DNA of 33,948 nt from an uncultured Verrucomicrobia subdivision 3 bacterium (lineage in GTDB: Bacteria; Verrucomicrobiota; Verrucomicrobiia; Limisphaerales; UBA11358). This document shows, one piece after another, positions 14,309 through 28,211 of this stretch (positions are counted from its first letter, which is position 1; every line of letters starts with the position of its first letter). The notes under the pieces were generated by a model that worked only from the letters and a program-made list of their open reading frames with translations, ran no database searches and was not told where the DNA came from. The translations under genes and the position numbers were made by a program. Location: NCBI GenBank assembly GCA_903833055.1, contig CAILDU010000071.1, forward strand, positions 1 to 33,948, read 5' to 3'.

Positions 14309-16324
14309 TCAATACCCCGTCAGCGTCAGCCAGACTGACATCTCCGACGGCCCGCGATTTTGCCAGACGGAATACGGAATGAATTTTACGTTCACCGGCT
14401 TCAGTTCCGCCTGCTGAAATTCTCGATACAATTTGCCACTCCAGTTTTCCGGCGGACGCAAAAGCGCCTTACCTTCGAGCACCACAATTCCACCCAACAA
14501 TCTTTGGTCGTAACGCGCGGTCAGTTTCATGTCCGACGGAATCAGCGCGTCCGAAATTTTCACGCCGGCCGGCAGGTCCGGCGATTCGAGGCAATAAACA
14601 ATCGGTCCGCGCTGAATCGCGACTTGGTTCAAATCTTCCTCGACCAGCGGATTCGCCTCCATCAAACGCACCGGCATCGGCAAATCTAAATCCACAAAAT
14701 CGCCAGTCTTCCAGACGCGCTTGATTTCAAAATAACTTTCTGGCGACGGCGAAAAATCGGCGGGCGAATTATTCACCCGCACACTCGCGCCATTCGCCCA
14801 ACCTGGAACCCGCAGCTTCAGCGAAAATTCTTTTTTGCCGCACGCCTTAATTTTTATCCGCACCCGTCCGTTCCACGGATAATCCGTCTGCTGCGACAAT
14901 TTTATTTTTTTACCCGCCAATTCCGTTACCAACGAATTACCCCCGTAAAGATTGACCCAAATCGCGTCGCCTGATTTTGCATAAGCATAACCAGCCGATT
15001 CCGCAATCGTGCGAACGAGATTCGGCGGACAGCAAAACGAACTCACGAACGGCACGCGCGTGCGCGGCCAGCGCAAATTCACCGGCAACGGCTCCGTCAC
15101 GCGCAATGGATTCGTGTAAAAGAAATTGGTTCCGTCCAAACTCACGCCGGAAAGCACGCTGTTGTAAAATTCCAGTTCCACCACGTCCATGAACTTCGCC
15201 TCGCCCGTCGCCAAAAACATCCGCCAGTTCCACAGCGCATTGCCGATGTTCGCGCACGTCTCATTGTGCGCCGTGATGTTCGGTAGTTGAAAATTGCGCC
15301 CGTAAGCCTGGTGGATGCGCGTGATGTTCGTCTGTCCCTTCGAACCGTCTGGTGCCGCGCCGTCATAAAGCGCACCACAGCCGCCGGTGATATACATTTT
15401 TTCCGTAACCACGTTCGTCCAGATTTTTTCCAGCGGCTTCCACAAATTCGTATCGCCGGTTTCCAAAAACAAATCCGCCGCGCCCGCGTAAAGATAATTG
15501 GCGCGCACCGCGTGGCCTTCTGCCTCGGTTTGTTTTTCGAACGCAGTCCGGTCCTGATTATCCGCCGTGCCGTCCTTCACCAAATCGCGCATCGCCAGAA
15601 ACTTTTTCGCCAGCGCGAGATAACGCGGCTCGCCCGTCGCGCGATACATTTCCACGATACCCATGTAATGCGACGGGCACATATCCTGCAACGCCAGTTC
15701 CGGCGTCGGCGTTTTAAAAACTTCGTCGAGGCAATCCGCCGCCTTGCGCGCGACGGCGAGAAAATTGGTTTTGCCCGTCACGCGATAATGCACGCTCGCC
15801 GCCGTCATCAACTGGCCGAGATTATAGACTTCCCAATTATTTCGGTCGTGAAACGGAGCGACAGCGGAATTCGTCTCGCGCTGGCGCAACTGCACCCAAG
15901 TATCAATATAACCATTCGTCGTCTGCCCACGCGCAATGACGGCAATAATCTCATCGAGGTGTTTGCTCAAAACTTCGTCGTTCGTAACCGCCAGCGTCGC
16001 ACTCGCGCCTTCAAGAAATTTATAAAAATCGCCGTCGTTGAACGAAGCGCCGTGCGGTTTGCCCGGCACAAGGTCGGCGAGAATTTCAAAATTAAAATAA
16101 AACTGGCTGTAATTTGTCCCTTCCATCAAGCGCGTCATGCCGGGAATCATCTGCGTGCGACACATCTCAAAACGGTCGGCAAAAAATCCATCCGTCCAGC
16201 GCGCCTCGCCCAGCGCGAGCGGTTCGACTTTGGCGAACGGCCTTGAATCATTGGCGAGTGCCGCGTTTGCGACCAGACCGAGCATTGCGGCCAAAATCCA
16301 TTGCGCTGAAATCTTTCGTGTCAT
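14309..16324 (-). CDS. GH127-type beta-L-arabinofuranosidase (DUF1680 family)
   Basis: ORF extends to 16366. The start at 16324 (MTRKISAQWILAAMLGLVANAALA) gives a signal peptide. Retains ETC (HNETCANIGNALW) and adjacent CysCys (SSFCCPPNLVRTIAES), matching the Zn-cysteine catalytic set of GH127. Confidence 0.88.
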   Translation of the reverse strand: MTRKISAQWILAAMLGLVANAALANDSRPFAKVEPLALGEARWTDGFFADRFEMCRTQMIPGMTRLMEGTNYSQFYFNFEILADLVPGKPHGASFNDGDFYKFLEGASATLAVTNDEVLSKHLDEIIAVIARGQTTNGYIDTWVQLRQRETNSAVAPFHDRNNWEVYNLGQLMTAASVHYRVTGKTNFLAVARKAADCLDEVFKTPTPELALQDMCPSHYMGIVEMYRATGEPRYLALAKKFLAMRDLVKDGTADNQDRTAFEKQTEAEGHAVRANYLYAGAADLFLETGDTNLWKPLEKIWTNVVTEKMYITGGCGALYDGAAPDGSKGQTNITRIHQAYGRNFQLPNITAHNETCANIGNALWNWRMFLATGEAKFMDVVELEFYNSVLSGVSLDGTNFFYTNPLRVTEPLPVNLRWPRTRVPFVSSFCCPPNLVRTIAESAGYAYAKSGDAIWVNLYGGNSLVTELAGKKIKLSQQTDYPWNGRVRIKIKACGKKEFSLKLRVPGWANGASVRVNNSPADFSPSPESYFEIKRVWKTGDFVDLDLPMPVRLMEANPLVEEDLNQVAIQRGPIVYCLESPDLPAGVKISDALIPSDMKLTARYDQRLLGGIVVLEGKALLRPPENWSGKLYREFQQAELKPVNVKFIPYSVWQNRGPSEMSVWLTLTGY

Positions 16325-16342
16325 TTCGTGTATTTCACGGTT
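16314..16342. repeat. Solo arm related to the 25958-26032 inverted repeat, across the GH127 gene start
   Basis: tttcgtgtcatttcgtgtatttcacggtt has the same layout as tttcgcgtagtttgcatatttcgcgg: TTTCGYGT, NNTTT, TATTTCRCGG, with one 1-nt length difference. No opposite arm recognised nearby. Confidence 0.55.
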
Positions 16343-16346
16343 AAAA

Positions 16347-18998
16347 TTATTTTCCAGATTTCGCATCGCGCTTCTCCAATTTTGCTGATTGCGGCACGAC
16401 GCCGAGAATCACAAAACTGCCTTTGCCGATGAGTTCCAACTTATTTCGTCCCGCCTCAAAACGGAACGAGTGGACATCCACGACCGGACATTCCTGCACC
16501 GTCGCCGCATTTTCAATCAGCGTCTCCACACCGCCGCGGTCATCGGCCTGCGCGGCGAATTCCAGCTTCGGCACCTGCAGCCAGATGTTGCGTTCGTCCT
16601 TAAAATAACCGACCAACACCAGCACCGGCTTGGCGGCTTCAAATTCTATCGGCGCATCACTGCCATTTTTTGCCGCCTCGTGCGAAAAGCGGATGCCCGT
16701 CAAGCCACTCAACTCCGGCGCGAGTTTTTCAATGACGTATTTGCGGTCGGAAAAAACCTTCGCGCCGACTTCAACCTTGTAAGTTTCTGCGTTCGTGGAA
16801 ATCAATTTGAACTGCGCCGCTGGCCACGGCTTGATGCTAGATTCGTCAATAACGGCAATGGCATTTGTGCCTTCCTTCAATGCCGCCACCTTCGCCTGAA
16901 AATCTTTCAATTCTTTTCCGTAAAGCGGCACAAGCTGCGACCAGAGATAATTTGTGCCTTTGCCATTTTCGCCACCGCGCACCGGAATTTTCCGCTGCGA
17001 TGTCTGCATCGAGTTGGCGTAGTGATAAGTCTTGTCGGTTAATTCGGCGAGCCTCTTGAAGGACTCCAAACTTGCGGCAAGCAAATCCGCTGCGGCATCC
17101 ATTTCTGAAATGTCGTGGCTGTAATCATAGAGTAAAACCATTTTCGCTGCGCGCACTTTGCACGCATAATTTTGTGCCATACACCAGATGCAGGTCGTGT
17201 CATTTTGAAACCGTTTGAACTCCTCCTGATGTTTGGGAACGGATGGAATGTAATTCGCCAGGCCAGCGGCTTCGCGTGCCTCGTCCAAAACTTCGTTAAT
17301 AATTGAATCCGGCGTCTCGCCGATATGCGGTTCTTGATTCCATTCCTTTTTTACAAACTCATCGAGCCGTTCGCCCGGCGGCGCTTGCGAGAGCCACAAA
17401 TCTTCAATCGCACCGTATTTATTTGGATTCACCAATTGGTCGAGCGTCATGCCGAGCGACAGTGTTTGCCGGTTTCCTTCCGTGATTCCAAAACGACGGA
17501 TTAATCGCGGTGCGACTTCACCGGCGGCATTGTAAGCATCGAGAATTTCTCCGGCGGTGTTTGTGTCGCAGCCGTAAAAATTTTCCAGACGTGAAATCCA
17601 ATAGGCGCGGTCTTCATTCGTGTTCACGTCGGGATTCCACGCGTAACGCGCCCACGCCTCGAACCAAATCCAGTCGCGCTGCCATTGCAGCAACGGCGGA
17701 TCGGCAATGTCGGGCGCATACGGCCAGTTCCAATAACTTAACGGGTAAAGATGAATTCCGCTCGCACCTAAACGGTCGCGCGAGGCCAAAACGGATTTGC
17801 GGATGAACTCTGTGTCGCCGTAGCGAAACGGTTCGAGGTTCGAGAGGATGTGGATGTTGACGAGATGCGAGCCGAGCTTCGCCATTGCGAGGTGCGTGGC
17901 CTGATCTTTACCACGCGGCTCCCACGTCGTCAGCGATTCACCGTTGTATTTTGTCTCCGTGAATAGATTGGAATAAACCTGATAACACGCGGGCATGATG
18001 GCCTCGGCGTCCATCGCGTGCGTGCGAATAACGACGGGCGGCTGCTCTTTCAATCCGGCCGCCTTCATGCCGTCAAGCACGCCGGGCAAAATCGTTTTCG
18101 TCGCCCACTCAACTTGATTACTCGTGCCTTGCAACGCTTCACCCAAACAAAGCATCAGGCCGACGTTCGGAAATTCCTTCACAAATTCCGCGATGGATTT
18201 GCGCGTGTAATCCGCGACGAGCGGTGTCGGCGCGGAAAGCTGCGTGGAAATCCCATTCGTCTCCGCAAACGGTTTCGAGACGATGATGTTGTAAAACATT
18301 TGCACGAGCCAGATGCCGCGCTTGTCGCATTCTTGCGCCAGCCACCGAAACTGCTCCTGATTTTTTTGAAAAACGTCATCCGGCACCTCGACTGCATAAG
18401 GATAATCTTTCAATTTCACGAGCGACGCGAACGGATGACCGCTCCACAAATACAGCGTGTTCATGCGGTTCGCCGCAAGAAAATCCAGATACTCCGTCCA
18501 CAATTTTTTGTCGTAAAACCACGGGAACAATTCCGGCGTGTAGGGATACTCGTAAACCTTGCGTCCGGGCAAAATAAAAGTCTTCTGCATCCCGATGCAC
18601 GTTCCGCGCAAAGTAAGTTGAGGCGAATCCATGAAATGAATTTCGTCCGGGAATTTTTTTGAATCGCGAATTCGTTTTGCCATTTCCAAACAGCCATAAA
18701 ATGCACCTGAATCGTCGCCGCCAGTAATACCAAGTGCTCCAGAATCACCCGCCAGCGTGAAACCTTCCTTGCCCGGCCCACCCGCGTTGGCGATGACAAC
18801 TTCCTTGCCGGAGGTCGGCTGATGAACTGTCACCGCATTAAATCCAGCGACCTTGAGCGCCTCCGCAATTTTCTCCGCGCCAAATTGCACGCGCGGCGCG
18901 GCATTCGTCGGAAGCACAATTGAAACCGTTTCTGCGTTCAACCAACCGCAACTGGCGAGCAAAACTGCGAGAAATAAATTTTGCTGGAGAAATTTCAT
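16347..18998 (-). CDS. Alpha-glucuronidase-like glycoside hydrolase (zincin-like N-domain plus TIM barrel; family not assignable here)
   Basis: ORF extends to 19091. The start at 18998 gives signal peptide MKFLQQNLFLAVLLASCGWLNA. N-domain AEKIAEALKVAGF...ITGGDDSGAFYGCLEMAKRI, then SPQLTLRGTCIGMQ, FLAANRMNTLYLWSGHPF, GLMLCLGEALQGT. Confidence 0.65.
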   Translation of the reverse strand: MKFLQQNLFLAVLLASCGWLNAETVSIVLPTNAAPRVQFGAEKIAEALKVAGFNAVTVHQPTSGKEVVIANAGGPGKEGFTLAGDSGALGITGGDDSGAFYGCLEMAKRIRDSKKFPDEIHFMDSPQLTLRGTCIGMQKTFILPGRKVYEYPYTPELFPWFYDKKLWTEYLDFLAANRMNTLYLWSGHPFASLVKLKDYPYAVEVPDDVFQKNQEQFRWLAQECDKRGIWLVQMFYNIIVSKPFAETNGISTQLSAPTPLVADYTRKSIAEFVKEFPNVGLMLCLGEALQGTSNQVEWATKTILPGVLDGMKAAGLKEQPPVVIRTHAMDAEAIMPACYQVYSNLFTETKYNGESLTTWEPRGKDQATHLAMAKLGSHLVNIHILSNLEPFRYGDTEFIRKSVLASRDRLGASGIHLYPLSYWNWPYAPDIADPPLLQWQRDWIWFEAWARYAWNPDVNTNEDRAYWISRLENFYGCDTNTAGEILDAYNAAGEVAPRLIRRFGITEGNRQTLSLGMTLDQLVNPNKYGAIEDLWLSQAPPGERLDEFVKKEWNQEPHIGETPDSIINEVLDEAREAAGLANYIPSVPKHQEEFKRFQNDTTCIWCMAQNYACKVRAAKMVLLYDYSHDISEMDAAADLLAASLESFKRLAELTDKTYHYANSMQTSQRKIPVRGGENGKGTNYLWSQLVPLYGKELKDFQAKVAALKEGTNAIAVIDESSIKPWPAAQFKLISTNAETYKVEVGAKVFSDRKYVIEKLAPELSGLTGIRFSHEAAKNGSDAPIEFEAAKPVLVLVGYFKDERNIWLQVPKLEFAAQADDRGGVETLIENAATVQECPVVDVHSFRFEAGRNKLELIGKGSFVILGVVPQSAKLEKRDAKSGK

Positions 18999-24400: not shown

Positions 24401-24489
24401 GCTGAAATGATTGGCGACAGAATTTTTTTTGGCGCGGCATTGAGAGCGAGTGACGTTCCCAGAAAAATAAAGATGAGGATTTTTTTCAT
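21484..24489 (-). CDS. Large beta-helix plus C-terminal putative hydrolase fusion (DUF6298/DUF4955-like)
   Basis: 1001 aa with signal peptide. Pectin-lyase-fold-like N-half (RIQKAIDYVGNLPADVNGIRGAVLLLKGRHEISGQLQITNSGVVLRGES). C-half with VICFRYWWQTDKGLFAPDGGQNLSPRQLERPWKGGSSSDENLAAMAAEYRQKFPNKVVIASGED. Confidence 0.6.
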   Translation of the reverse strand: MKKILIFIFLGTSLALNAAPKKILSPIISAGVDGKLAYDVDARGNRVLDFSTAGYFGGDQPIPAAPVRVIVSPINGDETARIQKAIDYVGNLPADVNGIRGAVLLLKGRHEISGQLQITNSGVVLRGESAETNGTVLVATGIDRRTLIRICGKNDFSTDANPNWKITDDYVPVGAISFRLLDATGLKIGDKIFVTRPSTQEWISSLGMTDFGGGLNDWRLVWHTNNYNLVWDRVIQKIDGNRVMVDSPITTAMETNFGGGFVKTYSWPGRIENIGVENLRLESAFDAKNPTDENHSWFAITMENVADAWVRQITFEHFAGSAVAIYESCKRVTVVDCFSLAPVSEDGGWRRNTFFTMGQQTLFLRCYAEHGRHDFSVGHCAAGPNAFVYCDAILPTADSGAIESWSSGTLFDNVRIDGNALSLINRGSAGEGAGWSAANSVLWNCVSAKTSCENPPGAQNWAFGSWGEFEGDGIWRSSNESASPGSLFFAQLGDRLGNETQKQILSPAQISTEPQNAKSFDDIFPPQVILMPRIQPIQKLISVTNGWLVCDGKLLVGGVKSINWWRGNLIPSDVTNYGINLTRFAPGRMGAGLTDDLNKIATSLVFSNCVALDHHYGLWYDRRREDHERARRMDGDVWAPFYEQPFARSGVGTAWDGLSKYDLTKFNPWYWSRLENFAEICDERGLVLFNENYFQHNILEDGAHWVDGPWRSSNNINDTGFHEPPFEIEKRIVMAPQFYDVTNPIRRKLHAGFIRQNLNNFTNNANVIQFTSAEFTGPLAFEQFWLDTIGDWERATKKHPLVALAATKNVQDAILADTKRAAVVDVICFRYWWQTDKGLFAPDGGQNLSPRQLERPWKGGSSSDENLAAMAAEYRQKFPNKVVIASGEDVALNRGAWAFVCAGGSMPNLPATTDAKLLAAIPQMKSWLADADKKIWALREPGKQFFVCGGRDMELDLSNENGVFTLRFIDPSSGSVSDQSQIVQAGGKVKLPGGILWLTKN

Positions 24490-26042
24490 GGCAGCTTTCC
24501 GGTCAGCTTCGCGAGTTTTTGGCCGCGCGCAATTTCATTTCCATCGGCCAACACAATCAAACCCGTGCCGCGATTATATTTGGTTCCGTCTTTGTCCCAA
24601 ATAATCGTGAGCGTGTGGCCGTGATAATTCACGCCATCGAGACAAAAATAATTCCAAACACCATCCGGCAGCAGCGGGAAAATTTCCACAACATTGTCCG
24701 TGCGCGGAACGAGACCAACGACGCCAGCGATGACCAAATCTGCAAACGTCGAGTGATTGTAATAACGGCTGCGACCAGCTTTGCCGTTAATCCATTGGCC
24801 GGTGGTCTCGTCGAGATACTCGCCGATGTAAGGCTTGCCGTCGGCAGATTGGCTGTGGACGTAAGTGAGAAAAGCGTTGAAATAATTGGCTTTTGTGACG
24901 ACAGATTGCTTGTAGTCGCGCAGAAAATTCGCGAGCGCGTCAAGCGTTTGTGAAGTCGCAAACGGCCAGACTGCGCCGTCCCATTCACAGTGTCCGTAGC
25001 CATGTGTGCGAAAAAATGGACTGCGTCGCTCGGCAGTCGTAATTCCAAATGGCGCGGAAAAACCCTTGGCATCCGTCAGTTGATTCCATGCCGAGCTATA
25101 ATTTTTATTGTCGTCCGGCAACTCGAACATCCACGGAATAAAACCAATTTGTTCACGCACGTTGGAAAACGTTCTATTGGTGTGGACGACTTCAAAAAAA
25201 TTCGCGCTGTCGTTCCACAAAGTTTTTTGGACGAGTTTTTTTAATTGTGCAGCTTTGGAATCAAATTTATCGGCCAGTTTTTTGTTGCCCGCGAGCCGCG
25301 CGATTTTGGCGATGGCCTGCGCGTTGCCGAACATATAGCTGTTGATTGTTGGCCGAATATTTTTCTCCGTGCGCGAGCCGCTGATGGATTCTTCCATCGC
25401 GTCACGCACGTCGAACTGCCAGAAAAGTCCGCCCGCAATCTGCTTTTCATTTTCCCATTGGCGATAGTCGGCGACCAAATTATCGAGCAGCGAGAGCAGA
25501 AAAGTTTTGTCGCCGGTGACGAGATAACGCTGATACAGCGCGGCTTCCAGCCAACTGCTGTAACGATGCAACTGCTGGCGGTGATTGTCGTCGCGCAGCC
25601 AGTAACGGACATAATCGTCGAGATAATTCTGGTCGTGCAGCCAGCGGCCTTCGGCGATGTGAAAGCCGAGCGCGCTGCTGATGGGCTGCGGTTTCGTGAG
25701 AAATTCGGTGAGGACAAATCCGTTCGTGGTCTGCTCGATGTGTTTGCGGAATGACCACCAGCGGAAATAATAAATCTCTTCCACCTCCTTGTCCGGGCAT
25801 TCGAAAAACGGAATTTCCTTTTGCAACCAGCTCCAGGAGTCCGCGTTGGAAACGAAGTTGGTGACGTTTTCGTCTTCCATCGAATTAAAATGGGCGACGC
25901 AGTTTGAAAAATTTGCCGAATCCAAAACCGTCAAATTTCCGGCAAAGGAATTTTGAACCGCGAAATATGCGAAACACGCGAAATAAAAAAACATAGGCAA
26001 TTTGCCTTTCGCGTAGTTTGCATATTTCGCGGCAAGAATCAT
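24486..26042 (-). CDS. MGH1-like (GH63/GH65-type six-hairpin) glycoside hydrolase
   Basis: 518 aa. YYFRWWSFRKHIEQTTNGFVLTEFL, GRWLHDQNYLDDYVRYWL, HCEWDGAVWPFATSQTLDALANFL, INGKAGRSRYYNHSTFADLVIAGVVGL. The start codon is uncertain: 26042, or 25994 (MFFYFACFAYFAVQNSFAG); see findings. Confidence 0.8.
   Translation of the reverse strand: MILAAKYANYAKGKLPMFFYFACFAYFAVQNSFAGNLTVLDSANFSNCVAHFNSMEDENVTNFVSNADSWSWLQKEIPFFECPDKEVEEIYYFRWWSFRKHIEQTTNGFVLTEFLTKPQPISSALGFHIAEGRWLHDQNYLDDYVRYWLRDDNHRQQLHRYSSWLEAALYQRYLVTGDKTFLLSLLDNLVADYRQWENEKQIAGGLFWQFDVRDAMEESISGSRTEKNIRPTINSYMFGNAQAIAKIARLAGNKKLADKFDSKAAQLKKLVQKTLWNDSANFFEVVHTNRTFSNVREQIGFIPWMFELPDDNKNYSSAWNQLTDAKGFSAPFGITTAERRSPFFRTHGYGHCEWDGAVWPFATSQTLDALANFLRDYKQSVVTKANYFNAFLTYVHSQSADGKPYIGEYLDETTGQWINGKAGRSRYYNHSTFADLVIAGVVGLVPRTDNVVEIFPLLPDGVWNYFCLDGVNYHGHTLTIIWDKDGTKYNRGTGLIVLADGNEIARGQKLAKLTGKLP
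25958..26032. repeat. Imperfect inverted repeat / long hairpin (26-nt arms, 23-nt spacer)
   Basis: Arm 1 25958-25983 ccgcgaaatatgcgaaacacgcgaaa. Arm 2 26007-26032 tttcgcgtagtttgcatatttcgcgg; its reverse complement ccgcgaaatatgcaaactacgcgaaa matches arm 1 at 23/26 positions. The spacer includes the mini-palindrome ggcaa-t-ttgcc (25996-26006). Confidence 0.85.
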
Positions 26043-26044
26043 TT

Positions 26045-26971
26045 TTAGAGATTCAGTTTGGACAATTCGTTTTGGATTTCCTTCAAACGAGTTTTGACAA
26101 GTTCGCGTTCCGGTTCACGAAAACGATGAAACGGCTCGGCCATGAAATCATCACAAATACCAAGGCAATTCAGCGCGCATTTGATGCCTTTGATGATAGA
26201 GGACGAATGTTTGCCGATGCGGTAAAAGGAATCGCTGACGCGCTGGATTTGCTTTTGCAGTTCTTCAGCGCGGGCGAGATTTCCGGTGCGATAGGCTTCG
26301 ACAAGTTTGACGTAAAGTTTGGGAAACAGATTTGCGCCGCCGCTCACGCCGCCGTTGCCACCAATTTGAAGTGTGGCTAAAAGTTTTTCTTCCGGTCCGC
26401 ACAGCAACGGCCAGTCGGGACGATGCTGCTGGATGAGTTCGGCGGCGGATTTGAAATAATTCAAATCGCCGGAGCTATCTTTGAGGCCGATGATGCGCGG
26501 ATTGTCCATCGCGCGACGAATGGTGTCGGCCTCGATGTGAACTTTCGTCAACGCGGGCATGTTGTAAATGTAAAGCGGCAGCGGCAGTTCGGGAATGAGA
26601 TGGTCAAGGTATTCCTGCAACTCCGGTTGCGCTTCGGGCAAATAATATGGCGGCGCAAGCACGACGGCGTCCGCACCAAAATCAGCGGCGGCGCGCGCGA
26701 CGTTCACGGATTCGACAAACGCGGTGTCGGTGATGCCGACAAGAACGGGCACGCGCTTTTTGATTTGTTTGCAGACGCGTTCAATCAATTCGCGGCGCAG
26801 GCGATAACTCAAACTCGGGCCTTCGCCCGTTGTGCCGAGAATGAAAAGCCCATTCACACCACCGGACAAAATGTGTTCAATTAGTTTTTCCAAACCGGCC
26901 ACGTCAAGTTCGTCACGACCTTTCAACGGCGTGATCATCGGCGGGACAATTCCAGTCAAAGACGGTTTCAT
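26045..26971 (-). CDS. Dihydrodipicolinate synthase/N-acetylneuraminate lyase (DapA/NanA) superfamily aldolase
   Basis: ORF extends to 26995; start at 26971 (MKPSLTGIVPPM) preferred. FILGTTGEGPSLSYRLRRELIE, LYIYNMPALT, and Schiff-base Lys region RIIGLKDSSGD. Confidence 0.92.
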   Translation of the reverse strand: MKPSLTGIVPPMITPLKGRDELDVAGLEKLIEHILSGGVNGLFILGTTGEGPSLSYRLRRELIERVCKQIKKRVPVLVGITDTAFVESVNVARAAADFGADAVVLAPPYYLPEAQPELQEYLDHLIPELPLPLYIYNMPALTKVHIEADTIRRAMDNPRIIGLKDSSGDLNYFKSAAELIQQHRPDWPLLCGPEEKLLATLQIGGNGGVSGGANLFPKLYVKLVEAYRTGNLARAEELQKQIQRVSDSFYRIGKHSSSIIKGIKCALNCLGICDDFMAEPFHRFREPERELVKTRLKEIQNELSKLNL

Positions 26972-26972
26972 T

Positions 26973-28211
26973 TTAAGTATTTTCAAAAGTTTCAACGCGC
27001 GGTTTCACCAATAAAATCAGGCCGACGCTCACCAAGGCTACTGCTGCGGACACCGCAAAGGCGATGGCAAATTTGACGTGATGATCGCGCATCCAGCCGA
27101 GTGCGACGGTCGCGCCCGCGCCGACGCTGATGCTGACGAGATTCATAAAACCGTAGCCGGTGGCGCGATGTTCAGGCCGCGCAATTTGGCAGAGGATGGG
27201 CATATTGTTGCAATCGAAAAATCCCCAGCCGAGGCCGAACAAAATCATCGCGCCAATCGCCACGGGTAAAGTCCACGCGTAACCGAGCAACAGCAACGCA
27301 GGCACGAGCAAGAATACACCGAGCGCGCTAGTGTAGATGCGTCCACGATTTGTTTTACGCATCCAAAAATCTGCAACTACGCCGCCTAGCAATACGCCGA
27401 CGAATGAAGCGATTTGAATATAGCCGGTCGCCGACAAACCGGCCGGACCTTGTTTCAAATTAAATGTGTCCGCGAGAAAAGTTGGCAGCCAGTTTTTTGT
27501 AACCCAACCGGCGATGGCGGGTAGCGTAAAATAAATTACCAAAACCCAAAACGCCGGTTGCGACCAGAGCGCAAAAAAAGTTTCAGAAATGGAAACGGAT
27601 TTTTTTGCAGCGGCATTTTTATTTTCAACCGACGCATCGCGTAAGGCCAAAATTAAAACTACGGCGTAAATAACTCCGGCCATTCCAAACCAAGTGAAAC
27701 AATTTCGCCACGAACTGGTTTGTGCGATGTAGCCGCCGATGCCGCCGAGCGCGAGGCCAACGTAAAGACCGCTTTGATGAATGCCAATCGCCTTCGCGCG
27801 CGTGCCGCCGGTGTGAAAATCCGCGATGAGTGCGAGCGCCGCAGGAATATAAAACGCCTCGCTGATGCCCATGAGCGCGCGGCACGTCAGCATTTGCGAA
27901 TACGTTTGCGCGTGGCCAGTCGCCCACGTCACCGCCGACCAGACAAACAAACTGCCAATGACCGTCCAACGACGATTAAATTTATCCGCGATAAACCCGC
28001 CGACCGGACTTAAAAGCGCGTAAACCCACATGAACACGGCCATGAGTGTGCCAAAATCCTGATCGTTCGCGATGCTCGGAATGTCGGCGCGAATCGAGGC
28101 GCGAATGGACGAAACCATCTGCCGGTCGAGGTAATTCAGCATCACCACCGGCCACAGCAACGCCACGACCGCCCATGCGTAGGAAGAAACTTTTTGCGCG
28201 CCGGTGTTCAC
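26973..28211 (-). CDS. MFS transporter, anion:cation symporter (hexuronate/ExuT-like) type
   Basis: 412 aa polytopic protein with GTG start (cac at 28209-28211). LNYLDRQMVSSIRASIRADIPSI, RWTVIGSLFVWSAVTWATGHAQTYSQMLTCRALMGISEAFYIPAALALIADF. Confidence 0.9.
   Translation of the reverse strand: MNTGAQKVSSYAWAVVALLWPVVMLNYLDRQMVSSIRASIRADIPSIANDQDFGTLMAVFMWVYALLSPVGGFIADKFNRRWTVIGSLFVWSAVTWATGHAQTYSQMLTCRALMGISEAFYIPAALALIADFHTGGTRAKAIGIHQSGLYVGLALGGIGGYIAQTSSWRNCFTWFGMAGVIYAVVLILALRDASVENKNAAAKKSVSISETFFALWSQPAFWVLVIYFTLPAIAGWVTKNWLPTFLADTFNLKQGPAGLSATGYIQIASFVGVLLGGVVADFWMRKTNRGRIYTSALGVFLLVPALLLLGYAWTLPVAIGAMILFGLGWGFFDCNNMPILCQIARPEHRATGYGFMNLVSISVGAGATVALGWMRDHHVKFAIAFAVSAAVALVSVGLILLVKPRVETFENT

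Follow-up and report, generated by a model that had tools for sequence, protein, structure and literature searches.

A genus-typical palindromic repeat has probably become the in-frame source of the predicted signal peptide of an MGH1-like (beta-L-arabinofuranosidase-type) glycoside hydrolase gene in an uncultured Verrucomicrobia subdivision 3 bacterium. The gene occupies positions 24486..26042 on the minus strand of a 33,948-nt stretch of DNA (hereafter the window), which is contig 71 (CAILDU010000071.1) of the source genome, a 2.75-Mb draft metagenome-assembled genome (MAG) that we call G000. We propose that a copy of the repeat entered the 5' end of this gene just behind the start codon, in a phase in which the left arm would read T-A-K-Y-A-K-Y-A-K and the right arm F-A-Y-F-A-Y-F-A-V. 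Read through from the ATG at 26042, the repeat would supply the charged n-region and the hydrophobic core (h-region) of a Sec-type signal peptide, and the c-region and cleavage site (NSFA/G, the slash marking the predicted cut) would lie 3' of it. We infer translation from 26042, recognition by Sec, and cleavage after Ala34. If this reading holds, selfish or structural repeat DNA has apparently been turned into a working part of a bacterial enzyme gene. Related species show a fresh palindrome, a diverged palindrome, and a palindrome that is gone while its peptide is kept, and it becomes directly testable how repeat DNA gives rise to new signal peptides.

The palindrome spans positions 25958-26032 and consists of two 26-nt arms, 23/26 (88%) complementary, around a 23-nt spacer. 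On the minus strand, the left (mRNA 5') arm CCGCGAAATATGCAAACTACGCGAAA (26007..26032) encodes (A)AKYANYAK, a basic n-region; the loop GGCAAATTGCCTATGTTTTTTTA (25984..26006) holds an alternative in-frame ATG; and the right arm TTTCGCGTGTTTCGCATATTTCGCGG (25958..25983) encodes FACFAYFA(V), a hydrophobic core. Folded as minus-strand RNA, the palindrome forms a strong hairpin of -40.4 kcal/mol, compared with -18.95 +/- 2.9 kcal/mol for shuffled sequences (z = -7.4; 0/200 shuffles as good). The N-terminus of the open reading frame (ORF) 24486-26042 reads MILAAKYANYAKGKLPMFFYFACFAYFAVQNSFAG. It matches an earlier sequence-only reading of this DNA, which had placed the two arms at the 5' end of this minus-strand gene and translated them from 26042 as AKYANYAK and FACFAYFA. 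The protein matches PF22422 with an E value of 4e-87 and 293 bits against a cut-off of 27, which places it within that family. Among solved structures, the protein is nearest to the C-terminal half of the beta-L-arabinobiosidase entry 5mqr (residues 619-1101, E 8e-166), the matched part of which we take to be the GH142 of the rhamnogalacturonan-II system.

Directly upstream lies a dihydrodipicolinate synthase (DHDPS)-family gene (26045..26995, minus strand). The MGH1 gene likewise follows the 3' end of such a gene in most of the genus orthologs that were inspected, usually beginning with an ATG a few nucleotides past the DHDPS stop codon. In the window, the preferred start ATG (26040..26042, minus strand) stands 2 nt past the DHDPS stop, and an equivalent ATG is found in the repeat-bearing orthologs and most others. 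Two codons separate this ATG from ACC GCG AAA TAC in genomes G067 and G007 and from ACC GCG AAC TAC in G023. The alternative ATG in the hairpin loop (25992..25994, minus strand) would open a short form, MFFYFACFAYFAVQNSFA, that has no basic residue, and its position is not conserved. Because the ATG behind the DHDPS stop is shared among orthologs and the in-loop ATG is not, both arms are most likely translated, with AKYANYAK of the left arm as n-region and FACFAYFA of the right arm as h-region, followed by VQNSFA/G. Of the two starts that the sequence-only reading had offered, the orthologs thus favor 26042, before the left arm, over 25994 in the loop. The predicted signal peptide, MILAAKYANYAKGKLPMFFYFACFAYFAVQNSFA/G, comprises 34 codons (25941..26042, minus strand), with the cut placed by the -3,-1 rule. 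We looked for a basic n-region, an h-region of ~12 hydrophobic residues, and small residues at -3 and -1, as in signal peptides of the signal peptidase I type. The peptide has lysines at codons 6, 12, and 14, a mean Kyte-Doolittle (KD) hydropathy of 1.96 over FFYFACFAYFAV, and SFA/G at the putative cut. Across orthologs, alanine is conserved at -1, and -3 is mostly small (SFA, SSA, SFA, AVA, and SHA).

The repeat itself is multicopy. With a 91-nt query, several related loci turn up in the source MAG, where the other copies read AACCGCGAAATACACGAAATACGCGAAA - loop - TTTCGCGTGGTTCGCGTATTTCGCGGTT. The 13-mer AACCGCGAAATAC occurs 12 times in this genome, compared with once for a reversed control. 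Across the genus it is present in 42/49 draft assemblies, with 278 exact matches against 5 for the control (totals summed by hand from a per-genome table). Class-wide it is sporadic, in 21/188 sampled genomes, a sample that includes genus members. The sequence-only reading had supposed a dispersed palindromic repeat, and these counts bear it out. Paired elements extracted from six genomes are mostly intergenic and often lie just outside gene ends. Long frames covering repeat copies are antisense, short, or extended, and the conserved domain begins well downstream. Each element of the family has a variable loop flanked by two inverted arms of 28 nt, which show a 9-nt period; intergenic copies have only the arms in common, and their loops are unrelated. 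Because the arm period is 9 nt, each frame of the arms is a tripeptide repeat, and the consensus arms are stop-free in all six frames (TAKYAKYAK, NREIREIRE, and PRNTRNTR; FAYFAYFAV, FRVFRVFRG, and SRISRISR). The recurrent AKYAKYAK and FAYFAYFAV strings can hence be explained as translations of one repeat, with the warning for annotation that they sometimes can be real.

Two side observations concern intergenic and longer forms of the repeat. One intergenic copy (L002 in G000, L245 in G067; ~1500-1580) sits at the same place in two species, with nearly unchanged arms and a diverged loop; this arm conservation suggests that intergenic copies have a role at the DNA or RNA level. Genome G006 carries four near-identical frames of 51-57 aa (L302, L305, L307, and L308), e.g., METAKYAEYANRPGF...HRLALALVFAGLAGFAVYPNCGV, made up of an extended form of the repeat; every one of them starts basic and ends hydrophobic.

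Among orthologs of the MGH1-like gene, the closest, in G067 (80% identical), reads MNLTAKYTKAAKILVVLRSVFLIACFVSFAVQNSSA/AD, and the more distant one in G007 reads MKPTAKYTKYANAVLVWRFVFLLAGLAYFVVQNSFA/AD; both have a repeat-derived N-terminus. The ortholog in G068 reads MRRTGKHGEQTNGQWRLRQLLWLACFMGFLVQGAVA/VE; its DNA is no longer repeat-like, yet it aligns without gaps over 36 codons. Over these codons G067, G007, and G068 are gapless, and each pair scores better than shuffles that preserved composition within each half (p <= 5e-5). An ATG, two codons, and [AG]CCGCGAAATA follow one another in G000, G067, G007, and (arms only) G023. The loops of G067 and G007 are identical at 22/33 positions (p 9e-5), and G000, G067, and G007 all have QNSFA as the 3' flank. 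G023 and G018 carry partial remnants, G018 retaining the right arm only, and G022 has a decayed copy at best. No ortholog has an interrupted reading frame, even though the mature domain has come close to synonymous saturation (synonymous substitutions per site, dS, 1.2-2.4). In five orthologs without the repeat (G014, G028, G008, G069, and G064), this place is taken by signal peptides of an ordinary, unrelated kind. The earlier proposal had been that a repeat inserted at a gene junction and now supplies the secretion signal, to be checked by whether relatives lack the repeat and have an unrelated signal peptide. Much of this agrees with what we find, in that the repeat lies in frame at the junction with the upstream gene and apparently encodes the n- and h-regions of a signal-peptide-like sequence, and such relatives exist. 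The insertion is not restricted to this genome; several orthologs have inherited it. In two orthologs of the MGH1-like gene (L141 in G018 and L151 in G021), a different repeat-like string (SLSAHRLGGEGRGEVG / SLSAQRMGGAGRGAVG) stands in frame within the long n-region, as if this gene junction repeatedly receives repeats.

It appears to be the hydrophobic peptide, not the hairpin, that is kept, because hydropathy stays or rises across orthologs while the hairpin decays. In the ortholog comparison, hairpin z scores run from -5.2 in G000 through -2.6 in G007, -1.7 in G067, and -0.6 in G068 to +0.5 in G023. Stability is strong only in G000, and we therefore rejected a conserved translation-control hairpin, which the sequence-only reading had raised. 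When 46 intergenic arms are read alike, 28 contain a stop or a charged residue, and the stop-free readings have a mean KD of 1.38. With KD values of 1.8-2.9, the six genic copies tend to exceed the 38 intergenic arms that are free of stops (Mann-Whitney p 0.002, or 0.004 when the four best are taken), although counting each element on both strands makes the intergenic readings partly dependent on one another. Among the genic copies, only G023 has a charged residue in its h-region window.

Several results pull the other way. Read in this frame, the right arm comes out hydrophobic in the majority of copies in any case, the intergenic readings averaging 1.38 with top values of 2.8, and the KD of 1.96 in G000 exceeds only 29/38 of them. 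For G067-G007, the repeat-derived part has a smaller proportion of synonymous differences (pS 0.30) than the mature part (0.65; Fisher p 0.001), and synonymous divergence is likewise lower in codons 1-36 for G067-G000 (Fisher p 0.03; G007-G000, p 0.11). Possible causes are a recent replacement of the segment, conversion by other copies of the repeat, and a remaining constraint on the DNA or RNA. Lastly, the clear repeat carriers do not form one clade but are split on the mature-domain tree (2 changes forced). A single old insertion hence needs losses or replacements; otherwise, transfer or repeated insertion must be invoked.

How the repeat relates to translation bears on three alternatives. 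It might be an untranslated leader whose frame is open merely because the arms are stop-free, with translation starting further down; the consensus arms indeed lack stops in every frame, and many of the copies that precede genes extend the open frame spuriously (e.g., L176, L179, L225, L234, and L238). We consider this very improbable. Orthologs conserve the mature region ahead of the next ATG (codon 55, MEDENV), so that this region must be translated; without the repeat there would be no signal peptide, whereas orthologs have one; and in G067, G007, and G068 the loop is crossed without a gap in the frame, behind an upstream ATG that is conserved. Initiation at the in-loop ATG (25994), with the right arm alone serving as signal peptide, has in its favor an in-frame ATG, an AAGG stretch upstream, and a hydrophobic product, and G023 and G018 also carry an ATG in the loop region. 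It is nevertheless unlikely: the short form has no basic residue, G067, G007, and G068 have no ATG there while sharing the one behind the DHDPS stop, and the AKY motif of the left arm is retained in G067 and G007. It is, similarly, improbable that the hairpin itself is selected, for translation control or mRNA stability, and that its coding effect is incidental. A very stable hairpin does begin ~10 nt past the start codon, synonymous divergence is low in the repeat-derived segment, and the intergenic pair L002/L245 has strongly conserved arms and a loop that is not. Set against these points, stability is lost in G067, G068, and G023, and hydropathy stays.

Several independent insertions of the same family at one target behind the start codon, instead of one inherited insertion, would explain why repeat-bearing orthologs are split on the gene tree, and copies often sit just outside gene ends. 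We regard this history as a real but minor possibility, given that loop sequence and length are common to G067 and G007, that the 36-codon gapless similarity reaches G068, and that the flank QNSFA is found in G000, G067, and G007. Recruitment of a repeat copy as signal peptide, read from 26042 through both arms, remains our preferred reading.

A broader hypothesis, which we put forward tentatively and regard as doubtful, is that the family is a portable N-terminus cassette: by inserting behind start codons, its copies would time and again give rise to new signal peptides or take the place of old ones. No frame of the arms is closed by a stop, and with one phase of the loop a single copy could encode a complete basic-plus-hydrophobic export signal. 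If so, a GH127 (beta-L-arabinofuranosidase) gene at 14309-16366 in the same window would be a second case. A half-copy, AACCGTGAAATACACGAAATGACACGAAAG (16313..16342, minus strand), overlaps its start, and an ATG within the arm (16322-16324), a candidate start, would open MTRKISAQWILAAMLGLVANAALA/N. GH127 orthologs in G021 (L318, NHETHE-MTRKISSRL...) and G062 (L323, NRETHE-MTQNSFF...) have the same half-copy arrangement. General use as a cassette is unproven, because surveys of the genus and the order found no other clear case in the AKY/FAY phase. An order-wide tblastn-style survey (293 genomes, E <= 0.003) returned two MGH1 copies and one short broken frame and no other gene. Of the further open frames in the genus survey, those inspected proved to be either copies between genes or frames that spuriously extend a gene whose good start lies downstream. 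At 31 sites an in-frame ATG precedes an arm; of the 20 fetched besides the two known MGH1 copies, none convincingly continues into a conserved protein. All these surveys used short queries, by which diverged copies are missed. QNAFAA after half-arms in L169 and L172 was judged a selection effect of the query.

The MGH1-like gene stands in a cluster at 2549-31596 of the window, together with GH127, apiosidase-like, DUF6298, DHDPS-family, and MFS genes, its own product being the GH142-like MGH1 domain. The cluster looks like a degradation locus for rhamnogalacturonan-II or arabinose-rich glycans, and the protein of the DHDPS family may serve as aldolase of a keto-deoxy sugar.

We assign the repeat to no named family, because it has no Rfam hit, no tag of repetitive extragenic palindromic (REP) elements, and no flanking Y1 transposase. 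No Rfam family reaches its gathering score; the sub-threshold matches are to eukaryotic microRNA precursors only, which we treat as generic hairpins, rejecting a known RNA family. A literature search for the repeat strings returned only unrelated papers, none describing them as a repeat. REP elements, bacterial interspersed mosaic elements (BIME), and terminal inverted repeat (TIR) families with Y1 (RAYT/TIRYT) transposases are likewise short palindromic intergenic repeats in many copies, and the Verrucomicrobium O. terrae is REP-rich (PMC3733652). Neither GTAG nor CGTC occurs as a tag in the consensus AACCGCGAAATAC...GTATTTCGCGGTT, and no arms flank the inspected Y1 transposase genes, apart from single arms at least a few hundred bases off in G065 and G004. 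Mobilization by a Y1 transposase was rejected on this ground and because the copy-rich G007 has no Y1_Tnp hit. The family has inverted arms; membership among miniature inverted-repeat transposable elements (MITEs) would also require target-site duplications and a parent transposon.

Other parallels come from palindromes that code for protein. Rickettsia palindromic elements (RPEs) are dispersed palindromes found both between genes and in frame within protein genes (Ogata 2000, 2002; cited in PMC2229807). Our family resembles them in being dispersed, with many copies per genome, and in having a copy in frame inside a conserved protein gene whose homologs include members without it. RPEs, which we compare by description only, reportedly measure 105-146 bp, belong to another lineage, and are mostly described from insertions inside proteins, whereas the element here would supply a targeting signal. 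The nearest precedent is YPO1552, in which a Yersinia palindromic sequence, RU-2, is fused in frame (Delihas 2007, PMC2759123; PMC2229807). There, too, a signal peptide derives from a palindrome, at the level of prediction, and homologs have unrelated signal sequences. The Yersinia element, however, is unrelated and 168 bp long, and YPO1552 is a small putative exported protein conserved only in Y. pestis and Y. pseudotuberculosis, whereas the gene here belongs to a recognized enzyme family. Here, moreover, one arm would provide the n-region and the other the h-region, and orthologs retain the segment over dS > 1. As read from its sequences, the MGH1 case goes beyond these precedents in presenting orthologs at several stages of divergence in the gene of a recognized enzyme.
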